This document shows positions 2,887 to 49,276 of a DNA stretch of 64,000 nucleotides, piece by piece. Every line of letters starts with the position of its first letter. The stretch's first letter is position 1. The translations under genes were made by a program, and so were the position numbers. The notes under the pieces were generated by a model. The model was not told where the DNA came from. It was given only the letters and a program-made list of their open reading frames with translations, and ran no database searches. The stretch spans positions 1,178,001 through 1,242,000 of the forward strand of contig NZ_JAAOIR010000001.1 in NCBI RefSeq assembly GCF_011440375.1. Direction: 5' to 3'. The stretch comes from Halorubellus sp. JP-L1 (GTDB lineage: Archaea; Halobacteriota; Halobacteria; Halobacteriales; Natrialbaceae).

Positions 2887-4947
2887 TCAGAGCTTCTCCG
2901 CGTCCCTCGCCTGCTCCGTCCGGTTCCGTGCCTGCTGGAGGCGCTTGTCGGTCGCGAGCCCGAGGTCGTCCGGGATGGCGTCGCTCGCCGCCGCGAGCCG
3001 GTCGGCTACGAGCTGGAGGCGCTCGACGACGGTCTCGAGTTGCCTGTCCGCTCGCTCGCGGTCGCCGGCCTCGGCGCGCTCGGCGGCGCGCCGTGCGGCG
3101 TCGACGACGGCCTCGAGCGCTCGTGCGAGGCCCTTCACGGAGTTCTCGCGGCCCTCCGCGTCCTCGGTGTCCACGGCCTCGACCTGCGCCAGGGTCTCCT
3201 CGGCGACGTCCGCGACGTACGTCGCGAGCGGCGTCTTCCCGGTCGTCGCGTGCTCGACCCGGACCGCGTCCTCGTCGCCGGGATTGACGCGGAACGCGCC
3301 GACCTCGTCGTCCGCGTCCCGGACCTCGGTCGTGAACGCACCACCCCGGTGCACGTAGAGTCCGTCGCGCTCCTCCAGCGGGGCGTCGTAGAGGCGACCG
3401 GCGAAGTCGTCCTCGACCGCAACCCCCTCGAGGTCGCGGTCCGCGTCGCGGCCGTCGACGTCGAGCTTCACCGCGTTCTCGCGCGCGACGAGCGGGATCT
3501 CGCCGTCGACGCCGGCGACCGTCGTCCCCGACTCGTCCGCCGTCACCGGTTCGCTGTGCGGGGCGACGCCCGCGCCGTTCACCGCGAGCGTGTGATCGCC
3601 AGCGGGGACGTCCTGGACGGCCGCGACGCCGCGGAACGTCGGGACGGCGACGGGGTCGCTCTGCAAGAGCGCGACGGACTCGACGTCCGACGTCTCCGTC
3701 GTCAACCCCTCGCCGTCGGGCGCCTCCGACGCGGTGACGGCGTTCGTGACGAACGCGATCACCTGGTTCGTGGCCGCGGGCTCGCCAACGACGTCGTAGC
3801 GCTCGGCGAGCGCGCGCCGATGCGCCGGGTCCGTGACGTCCGACGCCGGGTTCTCGTACCGCGGGTCGTCCCACGGGACGCCGGTCGTCGTGATGTGGCT
3901 CGCGATGGCGTCCTCCGCGAACGTCGGGATCGCGAACTCGAAGCTCAACTGCGGGCCCTCGAACGCCGCGATGTGCTCGAGTTCGCTCGTGTCGACGAGG
4001 TCGTACGTCACGTCCGCGTCCGCGTCGTCGCGGCCCTCGTACTCGAACAGCAGGCCGCTCTCGCGCGACGGCAGGTCCGGGGGCGGCGACCGGAGCGCGT
4101 CGAACGACCGCACGGTCACGCCCTCCGGGACGAAGTCCGACGCGTCGACGTCCGGCAACCGCTCGTGCTCGTACACCGGTTCGCCGTCCAGTTCCGGGAC
4201 CGCGAACGGGAGCGTCAGGCCCTCGTCGCGCGGCAGCCCGTACGCGAGCGGGATCTCGGCGGCGGTCTCGGCGAGCCCCTCGACGATGCTGTTCGTGACG
4301 TCCGCCACGTCGTCGTCGGTCGGGAACCGCTGGAACCGGTCCTCGTCGGCGTTCACCGACAGCCCGCTCGAGTGCGAGCCGAGCTCGGAGAGGACGCGCG
4401 GCCGCCCCTCGGGGTCCGGGTCGAGGTACTCGTTGTTCGGGACGCGCCGCGAGTGCGAGCTCGCGACGTACAACTGCGGATCGTCGCCGTCGGTGTCGAC
4501 GAACGCCTGGAGGAGCTCCCAGTCGTGCCAGTGGAAGTTCGTCGTGAACTGGTCGAACGCCGAATACAACCAGAACTGGACGACCGCGAGCGTCGAGTCC
4601 TCGTACTCGCGGACGTTGAAGAACACGCGCGGCTCCGGCGGGTCGTCCGCGCCACCGGCCTCGACGTACCCGTTCAGGGCGTCGAACCCGTCGACGACGG
4701 TGTCGCCGTCGCGCTCGCTCTCGAACGGCCGCGGATCGGTCAGGAACCAGGGTTCCCGTCGGTCGAAGTAGATCGCCGGCGCGAACCGCTCGGCGAGTTC
4801 CCGAGCGCGATCGTCGGCGACGGCCGCCGTGTCGCCGTCGTCGCCCGCTTCGAGCATCGAACAGCCAGCGATCGAGGCCGCGGCCCCCGACGCCACGGCC
4901 GCGAGGACGCGCCGTCGGTCGAGTCGCGTCGGGTCGTCGACGGTCAT
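2887..4947 (-). CDS. Large Tat-exported lipoprotein with Vps62-like HxHDWE region
   Basis: A 686-residue protein starting at ATG 4947, chosen because it places a twin-arginine motif (LDRRRVLAA) and lipobox (SIAGCS) at the N terminus; a longer in-frame reading to 5070 would bury the signal. It should be anchored outside the membrane. After the signal, residues 45-160 contain FAPAIYFDRREPW, VFFNVREYED and NFHWHDWELLQ (about 138-148). This is reminiscent of the Vps62/DUF946-type pattern in which a W-D-W-E stretch follows a description of a dry or wet surface, but homology is only suggested. The middle is beta-rich with a DHTLAVNGAG stretch. Residues about 590-686 are Ala/Arg/Glu-rich helix, probably coiled coil. 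Function unknown. Confidence 0.7.
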   Translation of the reverse strand: MTVDDPTRLDRRRVLAAVASGAAASIAGCSMLEAGDDGDTAAVADDRARELAERFAPAIYFDRREPWFLTDPRPFESERDGDTVVDGFDALNGYVEAGGADDPPEPRVFFNVREYEDSTLAVVQFWLYSAFDQFTTNFHWHDWELLQAFVDTDGDDPQLYVASSHSRRVPNNEYLDPDPEGRPRVLSELGSHSSGLSVNADEDRFQRFPTDDDVADVTNSIVEGLAETAAEIPLAYGLPRDEGLTLPFAVPELDGEPVYEHERLPDVDASDFVPEGVTVRSFDALRSPPPDLPSRESGLLFEYEGRDDADADVTYDLVDTSELEHIAAFEGPQLSFEFAIPTFAEDAIASHITTTGVPWDDPRYENPASDVTDPAHRRALAERYDVVGEPAATNQVIAFVTNAVTASEAPDGEGLTTETSDVESVALLQSDPVAVPTFRGVAAVQDVPAGDHTLAVNGAGVAPHSEPVTADESGTTVAGVDGEIPLVARENAVKLDVDGRDADRDLEGVAVEDDFAGRLYDAPLEERDGLYVHRGGAFTTEVRDADDEVGAFRVNPGDEDAVRVEHATTGKTPLATYVADVAEETLAQVEAVDTEDAEGRENSVKGLARALEAVVDAARRAAERAEAGDRERADRQLETVVERLQLVADRLAAASDAIPDDLGLATDKRLQQARNRTEQARDAEKL

Positions 4948-5488: not shown

Positions 5489-8400
5489 TCAGAGAGCCGC
5501 TTCCGCGGCGACCGGCACCGCCTGCGCAGCCACCGGTGCAGCCGTCACGCTCGCTGGCGTCGCAACGGCAGCGGCCGTCGCCGCCGTCACGCTCTCGGTC
5601 GTCGTCTCGTTCCCGTCCGTCTCGTTCTCCGTCCCCGTCGCGGTCTCCGTCGTCTCGTTCTCGACGGTGACGTTCGCGACGTCGATCAGCACGCCGCCGT
5701 TCACCGTGTACGGGCCGTCATCGGACCCGTTCGTCGCGACGAAGTCGTACGATTCGTTCCCGTTCGTGTCGAGGTGCGGCATCGCAACGAGCAGCTCGGT
5801 GAAGTCGTCCTCGCTGACGTTCGCGCCAGTCACGTTGAACAACTCGACGGTGACGTTCTCGTGCGTCCCCGCCTCGAGGTACTCCGAGACCCCGATGACG
5901 CTCCCGACCACGTCACCTTCGAAGAGGAACGCGTTGTGGATCGCCACGAACCCGCCCTCGGTCACCGTGACGTTCTCCACGACCACGGCCGTTCCGTTCG
6001 AGGTCTGATTCGCGAACGTCACGGACGAGACCTCGTCGGTCTCGTTCGGCATCTCCGTCTCCGTTCCAGTCTCCGTCTCCGTTCCAGTCTCCGTCTCCGT
6101 TCCAGTCTCCGTCTCTGCCTCCGTCTCCGTCTCGTTCGGCATCTCGGTTGCCGTTTCGGTCTCCGTCTCCGTCTCGTTCGGCATCTCGGTTGCCGTTTCG
6201 GTCTCCGTCTCCGTCTCGGTGCTGTCGTCGCCGTCCTCGGCGGTCACGACGGCGTCGTCGATGACGGGTTGGTCAGCTTCGACGTACGGACCGTCCGCGG
6301 ACCCGTTCGTCGCGACGAAGTCGTACGTCTCGTTCCCGTTCGTGTCGAGGTGCGGCATCGCGATCAGCAGGTCAGTGAGGTCCTCCTCGCTGACGTTCGC
6401 CCCCGGCACGTCGAACAGCTCGACGGTGACGTTCTCGTGCGTCCCCGCCTCGAGGTACTCCGAGACCCCGACGACACTCCCGACGGGATCGTCCAGCAGT
6501 TCGTCGTTGTGGATCGCCACGAACCCGCCATCGGACACCGAGACGTTCTGCACGACGACCGTGCCATCCTCGGGCGCCTGATCCTCGAACGTCACAGACG
6601 CTTCCTGTACGGGCTCTTCCTCGGTCTCAGTCTCAGTCTCCGTCTCAGTCTCCGTTTCGGTCTCGGTCTCCGTCTCAGTCTCCGTTTCCGTCTCAGTCTC
6701 CGTTTCGGTCTCGGTCTCCGTTTCGGTCTCGGTCTCCGTCTCCGTCTCCGTCTCGTTACCGTCATCGCCGTCGTCGTCTGCGGTCACGACTGCGGTGTTG
6801 ACGACCGCTTCGCCATTCAGCACGTATGGGCCGTCCTCGGCGCCGTCGGTCCGGACGAAGTCGTACGTCTCGTTCCCGTTCGTGTCCAGGTGCGGCATCG
6901 CGATCAACAGGTCAGTGAGGTCGTCCTCGCTGACGTTCGCGCCCGGCACGTCGAACAGCTCGACGGTGACGTTCTCGTGCGTCCCCGCCTCGAGGTACTC
7001 GGACACCCCGACGACGCTCCCGATCGCGTCACCCTCCAGCAGTTCGTCGTTGTGGATCGCCACGAACCCGCTCTCGGGCACCGTGACGTTCTCGATGACC
7101 ACCGAGTCGTCCTCGAGCGTCTGTTCCTCGAACGTCACCGACGCCATCCGCTCGGGTTCCTCCTCGGTCGTCGTCTCAGTCTCGGTCTCCGTCTCCGTCT
7201 CCGTCTCCGTCTCCGTTTCCGTCTCCGTCTCCGTCTCCGTTTCCGTCTCCGTCTCCGTCTCGTCCTCGACGGTCACGAAGGCGTCGTCGACGACGGCCTC
7301 GCCGTCATCGAGGTAGGGACCGTCCTCGGCGCCGTCAGTCCGGACGAAGTCGTACGTCTCGTTCCCGTTCGTGTCGAGGTGCGGCATCGCAATCAGCGAG
7401 TCAGTGAGGTCCTCCTCGCTGACGTTCGCCCCCGGCACGTCGAACAGCTCGACGGTGACGTTCTCGTGCGTCCCCGCCTCGAGGTACTCCGAGACCCCGA
7501 CGACGCTTCCGAGTGCGTCACCCTCCAGCAGTTCGTCGTTGTGGATCACGACGAACCCGCCGTCGGACACCGAGACGTTCTGCACGACCACGGTGTCGTT
7601 CTCGAGCGTCTGGTCGTCGAACGTCACCGACGCCATCGGCTCGGGTTCCTCCTCGGTCGTCGTCTCGGTTTCCGTCTCGGTCTCCGTTTCCGTCTCGGTC
7701 TCAGTCTCCGTTTCCGTCTCGGTCTCGGTCTCCGTTTCCGTCTCGGTCTCGGTCTCCGTTTCCGTCTCGGTCTCAGTCTCCGTTTCCGTCTCGGTCTCAG
7801 TCTCCGTTTCCGTCTCGGTCTCGGTCTCCGTTTCCGTCTCGGTCTCGGTCTCCGTTTCCGTCTCGGTCTCAGTCTCCGTTTCCGTCTCGGTCTCGGTCTC
7901 CGTTTCCGTCTCGGTCTCGGTCTCCGTCTCGGTCTCGGTCTCCGTCGGTTCCTCCTCTGCGGAGCTGATTCGCAGCTCTTCGACCGAGAGGCCGGTGACG
8001 ACCGTCTCGCCGACGCTCAGGCTTCCGCCGGACAGCATCCCGTCGACCGCACCGGCCTCGGAGGCCGGCCCGTCGAACGTGACGCTATCCGCCTGCACGC
8101 CCACGAGCGTGATCGACGTAATCTCCGCGTTGATGGTGGCGACGTCGTCTTCGACGCTCACGGACGCCGACTCGATGCTCTCGATCTCCACCGACTCGAC
8201 GGAGAAGCCCTCGACGTTCCCGCCGACCGCGGCGTCGAACGCCTGCTGGAGCGTGGCTTGCGTGCCATCGAACTCCGCCAGGTCGACCGTGAAGTTCGTG
8301 ACGGTCACGTCGTTCATCGTGACCTCCTCGGCCTGTACGTTCGTCGCCGTGACCTCTTGATTCGCTGCTGTGCTCGCGTCTGTCTGTCCCGACGTGGCCG

Positions 8401-14317: not shown

Positions 14318-14622
14318 CGGTCGATATCGACGGTCCTTCCAAATCAGCGTTGTGGCAATCCAGGTGGTACTCGTCGCGCGCGCCCGAGTCCGCGACCACC
14401 CATCGGTCTCGGTGGGTGTGCGACGGTGAGGCCTACTCGGACTCTCGTCTTTCGGGAGGTACGGGAGGACTGGAGTGCCGCGAACGCGATCCGGACGAGG
14501 AAGAATCGATCCCTCGGAGCCCCGTTCCAGCGCTCGCCGCAGGCGTCGGTCGCCGGTCGGCCGCGACGCCACCGCCGTCTACTCGGTCTTCGTCTCCTCG
14601 CCGGCCGCGATGCCACCGAAGT
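14318..14622. other. Gene-free intergenic stretch
   Basis: About 300 bases between two minus-strand genes. The part next to 14317 should hold the promoter of the pilin-signal gene. The part next to 14623 contains a partial second copy of the 3' end of the lipoprotein gene (a GACCGAGTAGAC block followed by similar sequence), indicating a small local duplication. Confidence 0.5.
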
Positions 14623-16428: not shown

Positions 16429-16467
16429 CGGCGAAGGCACGTCGAACGGTTCGACGGCACCGCCGGC

Positions 16468-16652
16468 GCGTGACGCGTAGCGGCGGTCTGCGCCTCACGC
16501 GTAGCGGCGGTCTGCGCCTCACGCGTAGCGGCGTCTGCGCCTCACGCGTAGCGGCGTCTGCGCCTCACGCGTAGCGGCGTCTGCGCCTCACGCGTAGCGG
16601 CGTCTGCGCCTCACGCGTAGCGGCGTCTGCGCCTCACGCGTAGCGGCGGTCT
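16468..16652. repeat. Eight-copy 23-24 bp tandem repeat
   Basis: The core CACGCGTAGCGGCGTCTGCG recurs with copies of the ACGCGT palindrome at 16473, 16497, 16521, 16544, 16567, 16590, 16613 and 16636, then a degenerate ninth copy near 16660. Spacing is 24 bp for the first two intervals and 23 bp afterwards, the difference being one G. There are no unique spacers, so it is not a CRISPR array. It lies between folA and the aIF-2 beta gene. Confidence 0.92.
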
Positions 16653-16728
16653 TCGAGTGACACGTAGCGGCCGCGTTCCGCGTGCAGCGCACTGCGCGTG
16701 CGGCGCGCCCACGCACGTCTCGGAGGGG

Positions 16729-39939: not shown

Positions 39940-40701
39940 ATGACGCTGTTCCCGGAGACGATGCGGACGCCCCGGTTGCGGTTCGAGCGACTGGACGAGG
40001 CCGTGGACGCGTTCGAGCGCTACGAGTGGACGCGGGCGAGTCGCGACGCCCGCGAGCGCGAGACGCGCTTCGTCACGGATACGCCGGACTCGCACCCGAA
40101 GGCGACCGTCGACGACCTCGGCGCCGCGCGCGAGGCGTGGGGCGACGCTGACGGGGCGAAGTGGACGATCTTCCTCCGCCCCGGCGAACCCGACGCCGGC
40201 GGCGACCCCGTCGAGGCAGGCGAGGCGCCACGCGTCTCGGACGGTCGAGCGGACGGAGTCCGCGAGACGGGCGACCGCGTGCACGTCGGCGTCGCGAGTC
40301 TCGACCCGCTCTGGGACCGACGACGCTTCCACACGGGCGTCGCGCTCCATCGACCGTACTGGGGCCGCGGGTACGCTGGCGAGCGCGCGCCCGCGCTCCT
40401 GAAGGTCGGGTTCGAGCGCCTCGACCTCGACGTCGCGTCCGTCGCGCACTTCGAGGGGAACGAGAACTCGCGCAGCCAGATGGAGTCGTGGGTCGACCGC
40501 TTCGGCGGCCAGGAGGACGGCCGGTTCCGGAACTGGGTGCCGCGCGACGACGGTGACGCGGAGCCGTGGGACCTCCGGTCATACAGCATCAGCGCCGAGA
40601 ACTACCGGGACGCGGGCGGCGCACCCGAGGTCGAACTCGACCCCGAGACGGTGCCGGTCGCGACCGACGACCCGACGGCTGTCGGCGGTGAGTCGGCGTG
40701 A
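39940..40701 (+). CDS. GNAT acetyltransferase, RimJ/RimL type (array member 2)
   Basis: A 253-residue paralogue starting at ATG 39940, 27 bases after member 1. It has TLFPETMRTPRLRFERLDEA, the CoA loop WGRGYAGERAPALLKVG, and GNENSRSQMESWVDRFGG. A Gly/Asp/Val-rich insert of about 35 residues (about 85-120) makes it longer than the others. The C-terminal 25 residues past YSISAENYRDAGG are also extra, and the final codons lie in the 38 bp repeat that leads to member 3. Confidence 0.87.
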   Translation: MTLFPETMRTPRLRFERLDEAVDAFERYEWTRASRDARERETRFVTDTPDSHPKATVDDLGAAREAWGDADGAKWTIFLRPGEPDAGGDPVEAGEAPRVSDGRADGVRETGDRVHVGVASLDPLWDRRRFHTGVALHRPYWGRGYAGERAPALLKVGFERLDLDVASVAHFEGNENSRSQMESWVDRFGGQEDGRFRNWVPRDDGDAEPWDLRSYSISAENYRDAGGAPEVELDPETVPVATDDPTAVGGESA

Positions 40702-40781
40702 CCGACCAATCGACAGCGCTCGGCGGTGAGTCGGCGTGACCGACCAATCGACAGCGCTCGGCGGTGAGTCGGCGTGACCGA
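40683..40781 (+). repeat. 38 bp coupling repeat with two 13-codon minicistrons (acetyltransferase 2/3 junction)
   Basis: Two identical 38 bp units (40698-40735 and 40736-40773) are preceded by a partial unit and followed by the start of member 3. Each begins GTGACCGACC and ends GGCGGTGAGTCGGC. The stop of member 2 overlaps GTG 40698. From there 13 codons (peptide VTDQSTALGGESA) end in a TGA overlapping GTG 40736, which encodes the same peptide. Its TGA overlaps GTG 40774, the true start of member 3. Thus three GTGA overlaps occur in a row, each with a GGCGGTGA Shine-Dalgarno-like stretch 13-16 bases before it. Confidence 0.85.
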
Positions 40782-41412
40782 TCTGTTCCCGGACGTCGTC
40801 CGCACCGACCGCTTGCGGCTCGTCCGCGAGACAGACGCGTACGTGGACCTCGCCGAGCGCTACGCGTCCCTCGCGGCCGACTCGGTGAGCGACGAGGAAG
40901 TCGAGTACGCCGGCGTGGAGACGTTCGAGCACCTCGGCGACGCTCGCGAGTACGTCGAGAGACGCGAGGACCACTGGGAGGAGCGGAGAGGGGTCGTCTA
41001 CGGCATCCGGCCGCGGGACGGCGAACGCGGTGCGGGGGAACTCGCCGGCGAAGCCGAGCTGTCGATGGACTGGCCGCAGCGAGCCGGCCACCTCTCGTGC
41101 TCTCTCCGGAAGCCGTTCTGGGGCCGCGGGTACTCGGGCGAACGCGCCGCGGCACTCATCGCGCTCGCGTTCGAGCGGTTCGACCTCGAAGTCGTCCGAA
41201 CGTGTCACGCCGTCGGGAACGAGAACTCGCGGCGCGCCGTCGAGACGTACGTCGAGCGCTTCGGCGGCGAGCGCACCGCACGGACGCGCAACGAGGGCCG
41301 GCTCGACGGCGAGCCCTGCGACCTCGTCTGGTACACCATTCCGCGGCGCGGGTACGCGGACAGCGGCGAACGCCCGCCGGTCGCGTTCCGCGACGGAGGT
41401 GCCGGCGCGTGA
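40774..41412 (+). CDS. GNAT acetyltransferase, RimJ/RimL type (array member 3)
   Basis: A 212-residue paralogue starting at GTG 40774 (TDLFPDVVRTDRLRLVRETD). The CoA loop is FWGRGYSGERAAALIALAF and the C-terminal motif is GNENSRRAVETYVERFGGER. The end (YTIPRRGYADSGERPPVAF) aligns with the other members. Its TGA overlaps the GTG of member 4. It is reached by translation through the duplicated minicistrons just upstream if coupling operates. Confidence 0.87.
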   Translation: MTDLFPDVVRTDRLRLVRETDAYVDLAERYASLAADSVSDEEVEYAGVETFEHLGDAREYVERREDHWEERRGVVYGIRPRDGERGAGELAGEAELSMDWPQRAGHLSCSLRKPFWGRGYSGERAAALIALAFERFDLEVVRTCHAVGNENSRRAVETYVERFGGERTARTRNEGRLDGEPCDLVWYTIPRRGYADSGERPPVAFRDGGAGA

Positions 41413-48235: not shown

Positions 48236-48691
48236 GTGAGCTTGCGCGTCGCCGTCGCCGCCCCGTTCCGCCAGCGAGGCACGGACAGCCTCGCCGAGAG
48301 CGAGTTCGTCGTGGCGCTGTCCCTCGACCGGGACTGGTTCTCGCCCGACCAGGCCAAGCGCCTCGTCGACGTCGCGGCCGGCGAGGGACTGCTGGAGCGC
48401 GACGACGGCGAGCTGTCGCCGACGTTCGACCCGAGCGGCGTCGAGGTCCCCGACGGGTTCGTGCCGGACGACGACGTGCTCCGGGAGCGGTCGACGTTCG
48501 AGCGCGTGCTGGACGCGCTCGTCGACGCGGGCGCCCAGAAGCACGAGGCGGTCGCGGGCATCAACGACCTCCAGCAGCGCCTCGGCGTGACGGTGTCCGC
48601 GGCCGCGGTCGTCTACGGTCGCCGCGAGGGCGTGGACGTCGCCGACGCCGCGTCGAAGGCGATGACGGAACTGGAGGGTGAAGACGCGTGA
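48236..48691 (+). CDS. DUF2240 family protein
   Basis: A 151-residue archaeal protein starting at GTG 48236. FVVALSLDRDWFSPDQAKRL and EGLLERDDGELSPTFDPSGV resemble a winged helix. RSTFERVLDALVDAG and VSAAAVVYGRREGVDVADAA close it. The DUF2240 family is conserved in haloarchaea and methanogens without known function. Its stop overlaps the first of two minicistrons. Confidence 0.8.
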   Translation: MSLRVAVAAPFRQRGTDSLAESEFVVALSLDRDWFSPDQAKRLVDVAAGEGLLERDDGELSPTFDPSGVEVPDGFVPDDDVLRERSTFERVLDALVDAGAQKHEAVAGINDLQQRLGVTVSAAAVVYGRREGVDVADAASKAMTELEGEDA

Positions 48692-48767
48692 CCGACCGCG
48701 CGACCGAACCGGAGGGTGAAAACGAGTGATCGACCACGCGACCGAACGAGGCGGTGGGGACGCGTGA
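48673..48767 (+). repeat. 38 bp coupling repeat with two 13-codon minicistrons (DUF2240 junction)
   Basis: Two diverged 38 bp units (48688-48725, 48726-48763) after a partial copy. The DUF2240 stop overlaps GTG 48688; 13 codons (VTDRATEPEGENE) end in a TGA overlapping GTG 48726. A further 13 codons (VIDHATERGGGDA) end in a TGA overlapping GTG 48764, the likely start of the next gene. GGAGGGTGA or GGCGGTGGG stretches lie before each GTG. The organisation and unit length equal those at 40683-40781, and the peptides are similar (VTDxxT). Confidence 0.82.
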
Positions 48768-49276
48768 CGGGCGAGCGCGTGACCGACGGCGTCCGCATCG
48801 CGGAGCTGTTGTCCTCGGAGCTGCACGGCCGCACGGACGGCGTGCTCGTGCACGTCGCGGTGACGGACGCGGTGGCGGACGTCGAGCCGAGCGTCGACGG
48901 CGAGCGCGCGTACGACGTCGTCTACGCCGCGGAGCCGCTGGTCGCGGAACCCGAGCAGGACGTCGACGTCCTCGAGGTCGACGTCGGGTCGGCGACCGGC
49001 GAGACGGTCGCGTCGGTGTACGTGCACCCCGAGCGCGCTCGCGTCGAGTTCGTCGCCGGTGCGGCCATCGCCGCCGAGGCCGCCGATGGGACGCGACTCC
49101 GTGTGCGACCGAAGGGGACGACGCCACCGCGGACGCTCGCGTTCGTGGAGTCGGGTGCGGCCGCGAAGGACGCCGCGGACGTCGTCGTCGCAGTCGTCGA
49201 CGGACTCCTCGAGGACACCGGCGAAGACGACGTCGATGATGCAGAGGACGCCGAAGGCAGCGAAGACGACGCGTAG
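48764..49276 (+). CDS. Conserved haloarchaeal protein of unknown function
   Basis: A 170-residue acidic protein. It starts at GTG 48764 (overlapping the second minicistron) or GTG 48779. Content: RVTDGVRIAELLSSELHGRT, VLVHVAVTDAVADVEPS, TVASVYVHPERARVEFVAGA and ESGAAAKDAADVVVAVVDGL. Alternating helices and strands suggest a compact alpha/beta domain; the last 20 residues are an acidic tail. Not recognised. It is in an operon with the DUF2240 gene. Confidence 0.65.
   Translation: MTGERVTDGVRIAELLSSELHGRTDGVLVHVAVTDAVADVEPSVDGERAYDVVYAAEPLVAEPEQDVDVLEVDVGSATGETVASVYVHPERARVEFVAGAAIAAEAADGTRLRVRPKGTTPPRTLAFVESGAAAKDAADVVVAVVDGLLEDTGEDDVDDAEDAEGSEDDA

Follow-up and report, generated by a model that had tools for sequence, protein, structure and literature searches.

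Two neighboring acetyltransferase genes in the genome of Halorubellus sp. JP-L1 (G000; 3.76 Mb, 5 contigs) are joined by tandem copies of a 38-bp segment, each of which forms a 13-codon minicistron that shares a stop-start overlap with the frame on either side. These units stem from local tandem duplication of the ends of the flanking genes and not from a dispersed element. Other junctions in this genome and in that of the sister species Halorubellus salinus carry duplications of different sequence and length, and where these lead into a real downstream gene their periods are biased toward one residue modulo three. We predict that ordinary short tandem duplications were filtered by selection for termination-reinitiation coupling, which probably left behind minicistrons that relay ribosomes from the upstream to the downstream gene.

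The junction between acetyltransferases 2 and 3

The array belongs to a series of five genes for GNAT acetyltransferases (Pfam PF13302) in the window, the 64,000-nt stretch of DNA that was analyzed; the window features described here and below are on the + strand. Acetyltransferase 2 (39940..40701; 253 aa, ending in TAVGGESA; PF13302, E=1.9e-10) is followed by two identical 38-bp units at 40698-40735 and 40736-40773, and then by acetyltransferase 3 (40774..41412; 212 aa; PF13302, E=1.5e-13). GTGA occurs at 40698, 40736 and 40774. Each 42-nt frame (minicistron 1, 40698..40739; minicistron 2, 40736..40777) consists of 13 codons and a stop, encodes VTDQSTALGGESA, and has a 4-base GTGA in common with both of its neighbors. 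The original prediction of two identical 13-codon minicistrons in 38-bp units is borne out by the sequence and by TRF, which reports a period of 38, 2.6 copies, a 100% match and a score of 200 for 40682-40781. The window contains 7 GTGA pairs spaced 38 bp apart versus 2.29 expected from shuffling, and all 7 fall within this array and the one at 48688 described below.

The Shine-Dalgarno (SD)-like stretch that had been proposed to precede every GTG is also present. The motif GGCGGTGA is located at 40684..40691 and recurs at 40722-40729 and 40760-40767, in each case ending 6 nt before the GTG, and all three starts have a 5-nt match to the anti-SD complement. The final 38 bp of acetyltransferase 2 before the GTGA (40660..40697, encoding the terminal peptide ATDDPTAVGGESA) match the unit at 31/38 positions. 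Counting this diverged copy, which is gene sequence, the array comprises three. The start of acetyltransferase 3 at 40774 is backed by H. salinus, in which VSDLFPEEVRTERL opens the next acetyltransferase, right at the GTGA that it shares with the acetyltransferase 2 orthologue.

A dispersed repeat or mobile element was rejected as the source of the array, since the unit was not found elsewhere in the genome at ≤3 mismatches. An RNA element or terminator was also rejected, given that no Rfam match was identified for the first junction and that RNA folding was no better than that of shuffles (z 0.72 and -0.47).

A second junction with the same layout

A second junction, absent from the original prediction, was identified at 48688-48763. 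Here the upstream gene encodes a DUF2240 protein (48236..48691; PF09999, E=7.6e-54), and GTGA is found at 48688, 48726 and 48764. Minicistron A (48688..48729; VTDRATEPEGENE) and minicistron B (48726..48767; VIDHATERGGGDA) each have 13 codons and are identical at 28/38 positions. Every difference between them alters the peptide, and the frame and the overlaps are retained. Anti-SD matches at the starts of this junction are 4-5 nt. The downstream gene (48764..49276) begins with VTGERVTDGVRIAELL and has no Pfam match. Its start agrees with that of the H. salinus orthologue, which begins with MTERRVTDGVRIAELL at its own ATGA overlap. Translation is unlikely to begin at the upstream in-frame GTG 48716, given the arginine-rich stretch that this would add and the start of the H. 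salinus orthologue, which is at the position equivalent to 48764.

Coupled minicistrons at other junctions

We surveyed 1.26 Mb from each of two Halorubellus genomes, this one and that of H. salinus (2.53 Mb in all, about one third of each), with real genes called by a codon-usage classifier. Chains of coupled minicistrons follow 47/440 NTGA gene ends that lack a direct overlap versus 316/6862 control frames (p=6e-7). Single minicistrons also arise by chance, in ~5% of control frames. Several of the minicistrons that are not tandem duplicates are uncoupled in the sister species. The mean SD match is 4.2 at minicistron starts versus 4.8 at direct overlaps, on a background of 3.2.

Tandem cases have a variety of periods. 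Between the genes for a FecCD permease and an ABC ATPase (L010:12028-12126; G000:C1, about 332,050) there are coupled frames of 19 and 12 codons with a period of 35, and the final 35 bp form an exact duplicate. The minicistron at locus L048 (period 29), MTRRELGGSR, is visibly the start of the downstream gene (MTSRRE) joined to the end of the upstream gene (GGSR). Further cases are L019 and L023 (both period 47), L246 (41) and L026 (26) and, in H. salinus, L061 (38), L193 (23), L062 (20) and L239 (- strand, upstream stop at 3554), where three successive 15-codon coupled frames, VMCVDRDSQWVGGAS, VMSAADRLRRGGGAS and VMSAADRPRRGGGVP, have a period of 44. At L187 (- strand, upstream stop at 14567) a coupled minicistron of 27 codons is made up of 24-bp repeats that stay in frame (VTSMRSLE). 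Unit sequences differ from one junction to the next. A special role for the 38-bp period was rejected, as the periods of the coupled cases (20, 23, 26, 29, 35, 38, 41, 44 and 47) range from 20 to 47 and there is no peak at 38 among the array periods of the genome.

Duplication periods and the stop-start overlap

When a unit is duplicated at a GTGA overlap, a length of 3n produces an extension fused to the downstream protein, and a length of 3n+1 places the reinitiated ribosome out of frame. With a length of 3n+2 the result is a minicistron whose stop codon falls in the following overlap, and both proteins and the coupling stay intact. NTGA gene ends were scanned for nearby tandem similarity regardless of frame, and each match was then checked for a real gene following from its last copy. 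With a real downstream gene, the period is 3n+2 in 10/11 cases, 3n in one and 3n+1 in none (2.53 Mb of the two Halorubellus genomes); the sole 3n case is L187, where the in-frame repeats are inside the minicistron, which is still coupled. Without a downstream gene, the counts for remainders 0, 1 and 2 are 6, 5 and 8. The difference between the two groups is significant (Fisher p=0.018), as is 10/11 against an expectation of 1/3 (p=1.3e-4). The numbers are small and several matches have low tandem scores (13-21), with 0.93 chance scores of at least 13 expected across the 653 ends. Under a wider definition the period is 3n+2 in 10/13 cases, or in 11/14 (p=7e-4) when the 48688 junction, which the scan missed, is included. 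The test was devised after the two window junctions had been seen and both are its origin; without them the counts are 8/9 or, under the wider definition, 9/12 (hand-computed p about 0.001 and 0.004). The frame arithmetic originally proposed for one array, by which a 38-bp unit keeps the coupling architecture, therefore holds in a broader test, with 3n+2 in ten of the eleven duplications that lead into a downstream gene. This bias at coupled junctions suggests that evolution protects the hand-over of the ribosome.

Unit number in the two sister species

At the acetyltransferase 2 junction there is a direct GTGA overlap in H. salinus versus two units here. The H. salinus cluster (L102) lacks acetyltransferase 3 (40774-41412), and acetyltransferases 2 and 4 there share a direct GTGA overlap; a tree and sequence identities place the split between acetyltransferases 3 and 4 before the parting of the two species. 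The DUF2240 junction has one 13-codon minicistron (MMRSPRRHRGGEQ) in H. salinus versus two here, and the FecCD/ATPase junction has one 17-codon frame versus two (19 and 12 codons). At L019 and L048 a direct ATGA overlap in H. salinus corresponds to one unit here. All five of these orthologous junctions are coupled by architecture in H. salinus. With zero or one unit at the sister junctions versus one or two here, we infer that the number of units shifts by gain or loss while the coupling stays.

The DUF2240 junction shows how little of the minicistron itself is retained. It has 13 codons in both species, yet the DNA is identical at only 15/38 positions versus 50/60 and 48/60 in the flanks, and the peptides (MMRSPRRHRGGEQ versus VIDHATERGGGDA) are not conserved. 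Either the frame was held during sequence turnover or the minicistrons had two separate origins. Among the DUF2240 loci that were read outside the genus, no coupled minicistron was found.

Arrays without coupled genes

Tandem arrays also occur where there is nothing to couple. A 38-bp array of 3.8 copies (L022:10344-10488, also L004; G000:C1:1620383) is located at a gene 3' end that has no coupled downstream gene, and it makes minicistrons (VTISASDVDGLFE) that lead nowhere. Arrays of 38 bp are also found in non-coding DNA (L005, L006). GTGAC-anchored matches at 38-bp spacing, many of them tandem arrays, were identified at the sequence level in 27/391 haloarchaeal genomes. Coupled 38-bp arrays were also looked for in other haloarchaeal genera; among the matches read in context, those in genomes G029, G055 and G117, each array either lies in non-coding DNA or is unpaired. 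Two further repeats are present in the window: a 23-bp tandem array at 16466-16671 (8.8 copies, 95% match), and a 489-bp tandem repeat at 6689-7751 (2.2 copies) with CGTCTC-type hexamers, which is probably a repetitive low-complexity gene region.

A proposed ribosome relay formed by duplication

We propose that the segment duplicated is the end of the upstream gene plus the first bases of the downstream gene, copied across the 4-base overlap. Duplication alone would then create a chimeric minicistron, with the start of the downstream gene and the end of the upstream gene, and with a stop-start overlap on each side. At the first junction, a ribosome would end acetyltransferase 2 at TGA 40701, reinitiate at GTG 40698, read 13 codons and terminate. 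It would then reinitiate at 40736, read another 13 codons, and finally reinitiate at 40774 to translate acetyltransferase 3. Translation would in this way bridge the inserted DNA, which would otherwise be a 72-nt gap too wide for coupling. In Haloferax volcanii a gap of 22 nt abolished reinitiation (PMC10666635), so 72 untranslated nucleotides, from TGA 40701 to GTG 40774, should uncouple the genes; read as two minicistrons, they leave no gap. Duplications of any length presumably arise, and at coupled junctions those of 3n+2 would be retained, as 3n would extend the downstream protein and 3n+1 would break the relay. The most likely account of the junctions is a ribosome relay that derives from ordinary tandem duplications and was kept because it preserves coupling. 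The comparative evidence supports this coupling reading at the level of genome sequence.

Alternative explanations

The arrays could instead be neutral minisatellites, slippage repeats without translational consequence, with the downstream gene starting de novo or from its own promoter and the 13-codon frames a by-product of the 38-bp period. Such repeats are common: arrays with periods not divisible by three reach 58 per Mb in both Halorubellus genomes, ~2x the density in sampled haloarchaea of other genera (27.5 per Mb), and the 38-bp arrays described above include one with a like frame at a partnerless gene end and others in non-coding DNA. We nevertheless consider this unlikely in view of the 3n+2 period in ten of eleven coupled junctions with no bias elsewhere, the frames and overlaps that survive among the diverged copies at 48688, and the coupling in the sister orthologues of all five duplicated junctions. 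Functional micropeptides are extremely improbable. The identity of the copies at 40698 and 40736, which could be taken as a sign of a conserved product, fits recent duplication, and all copy differences at 48688 alter the peptide. An unrelated peptide of equal length occupies the DUF2240 junction in the sister species, and the FecCD/ATPase minicistrons vary in both length and sequence. The minicistron peptide itself appears to be under no selection that is visible in these alignments.

It may also be asked whether the number of units matters. If each relay step loses some ribosomes, copy number could set the ratio of upstream to downstream protein; unit number does vary between the sister species at several junctions, and identical copies imply easy gain and loss. 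Nothing indicates that the number is selected rather than tolerated, however, and we regard such tuning as very unlikely. A broader version, in which junctions of this lineage evolve expandable relays (each overlap duplication adding a new stop-start module, with at least three reinitiations in a row on frames of 7-19 codons and unit number adjusting the ratio of the flanking proteins), seems quite unlikely. The original view of the units as expandable junction modules rather than random repeats stands in part, in that unit number differs between sister species. The units are nevertheless ordinary local tandem duplications for which 38 bp is not special; at ≤3 mismatches the unit of the first array is confined to that array within the genome, and like arrays lie at the partnerless gene end (L004/L022) and in the non-coding loci. 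A dedicated expandable module is not supported.

Relation to known systems

The nearest known systems are termination-reinitiation at 4-nt overlaps and the mycobacterial interspersed repetitive units (MIRUs). In Haloferax volcanii, 9/9 tested overlapping gene pairs were strictly coupled (PMC6728339), and coupling in E. coli needs no more than the final 15 nt of the upstream gene. As in the coupled overlapping genes described by Huber et al. (2019, PMC6728339; 2023, PMC10666635), the window junctions have an NTGA stop-start overlap of 4 nt (at 40698, 40736 and 40774, and at 48688, 48726 and 48764) and, at both junctions, an SD-like motif inside the preceding frame, which is helpful but not essential. 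Coupling of this type explains why inserted DNA would have to be translated for coupling to persist. The known cases couple two full genes, whereas the genes here are separated by one or two duplicated 13-codon frames, which would require successive reinitiations on very short frames.

MIRUs are reported to be mobile, to insert at start codons and to couple through their own frame via a 4-nt overlap (Supply et al. 1997, cited in PMC12548453). They resemble the units here, as far as that account goes, in being short junction units with a small frame that overlaps the neighboring gene by 4 nt and whose insertion disturbs expression little; the minicistrons have the same 4-nt overlap onto the adjoining gene. 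By the same account MIRUs are mobile and recur at many loci, whereas each junction here derives its sequence from its own genes: the first unit has no other copy in the genome at ≤3 mismatches, and unit sequence varies with the junction. In short-frame ribosome delivery of the uORF type (PMC12548453) a short frame serves solely to deliver the ribosome downstream, as proposed here, but in our case the frame sits between two genes and was made by duplication of their ends. Prokaryotic minisatellites or VNTRs, which consist of exact tandem copies in a number that varies between relatives, are a possible parallel: TRF detects tandem copies here, and unit number differs between these two sister species. 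What sets the present junctions apart is the bias of the period to 3n+2 where genes are coupled, the periods elsewhere being unbiased. In open-access papers, we found no report of tandem duplications that yield relay minicistrons, nor of such a period bias.

Should further genomes bear out the frame bias, tandem duplications would constitute a natural experiment that demonstrates selection in the wild for the coupling of overlapping genes, and archaeal ribosomes would be able to manage several consecutive terminations and reinitiations on frames of about a dozen codons. Duplication could also account simply for many of the tiny frames in operons that have so far lacked an explanation; these may be by-products that are held in frame by coupling.
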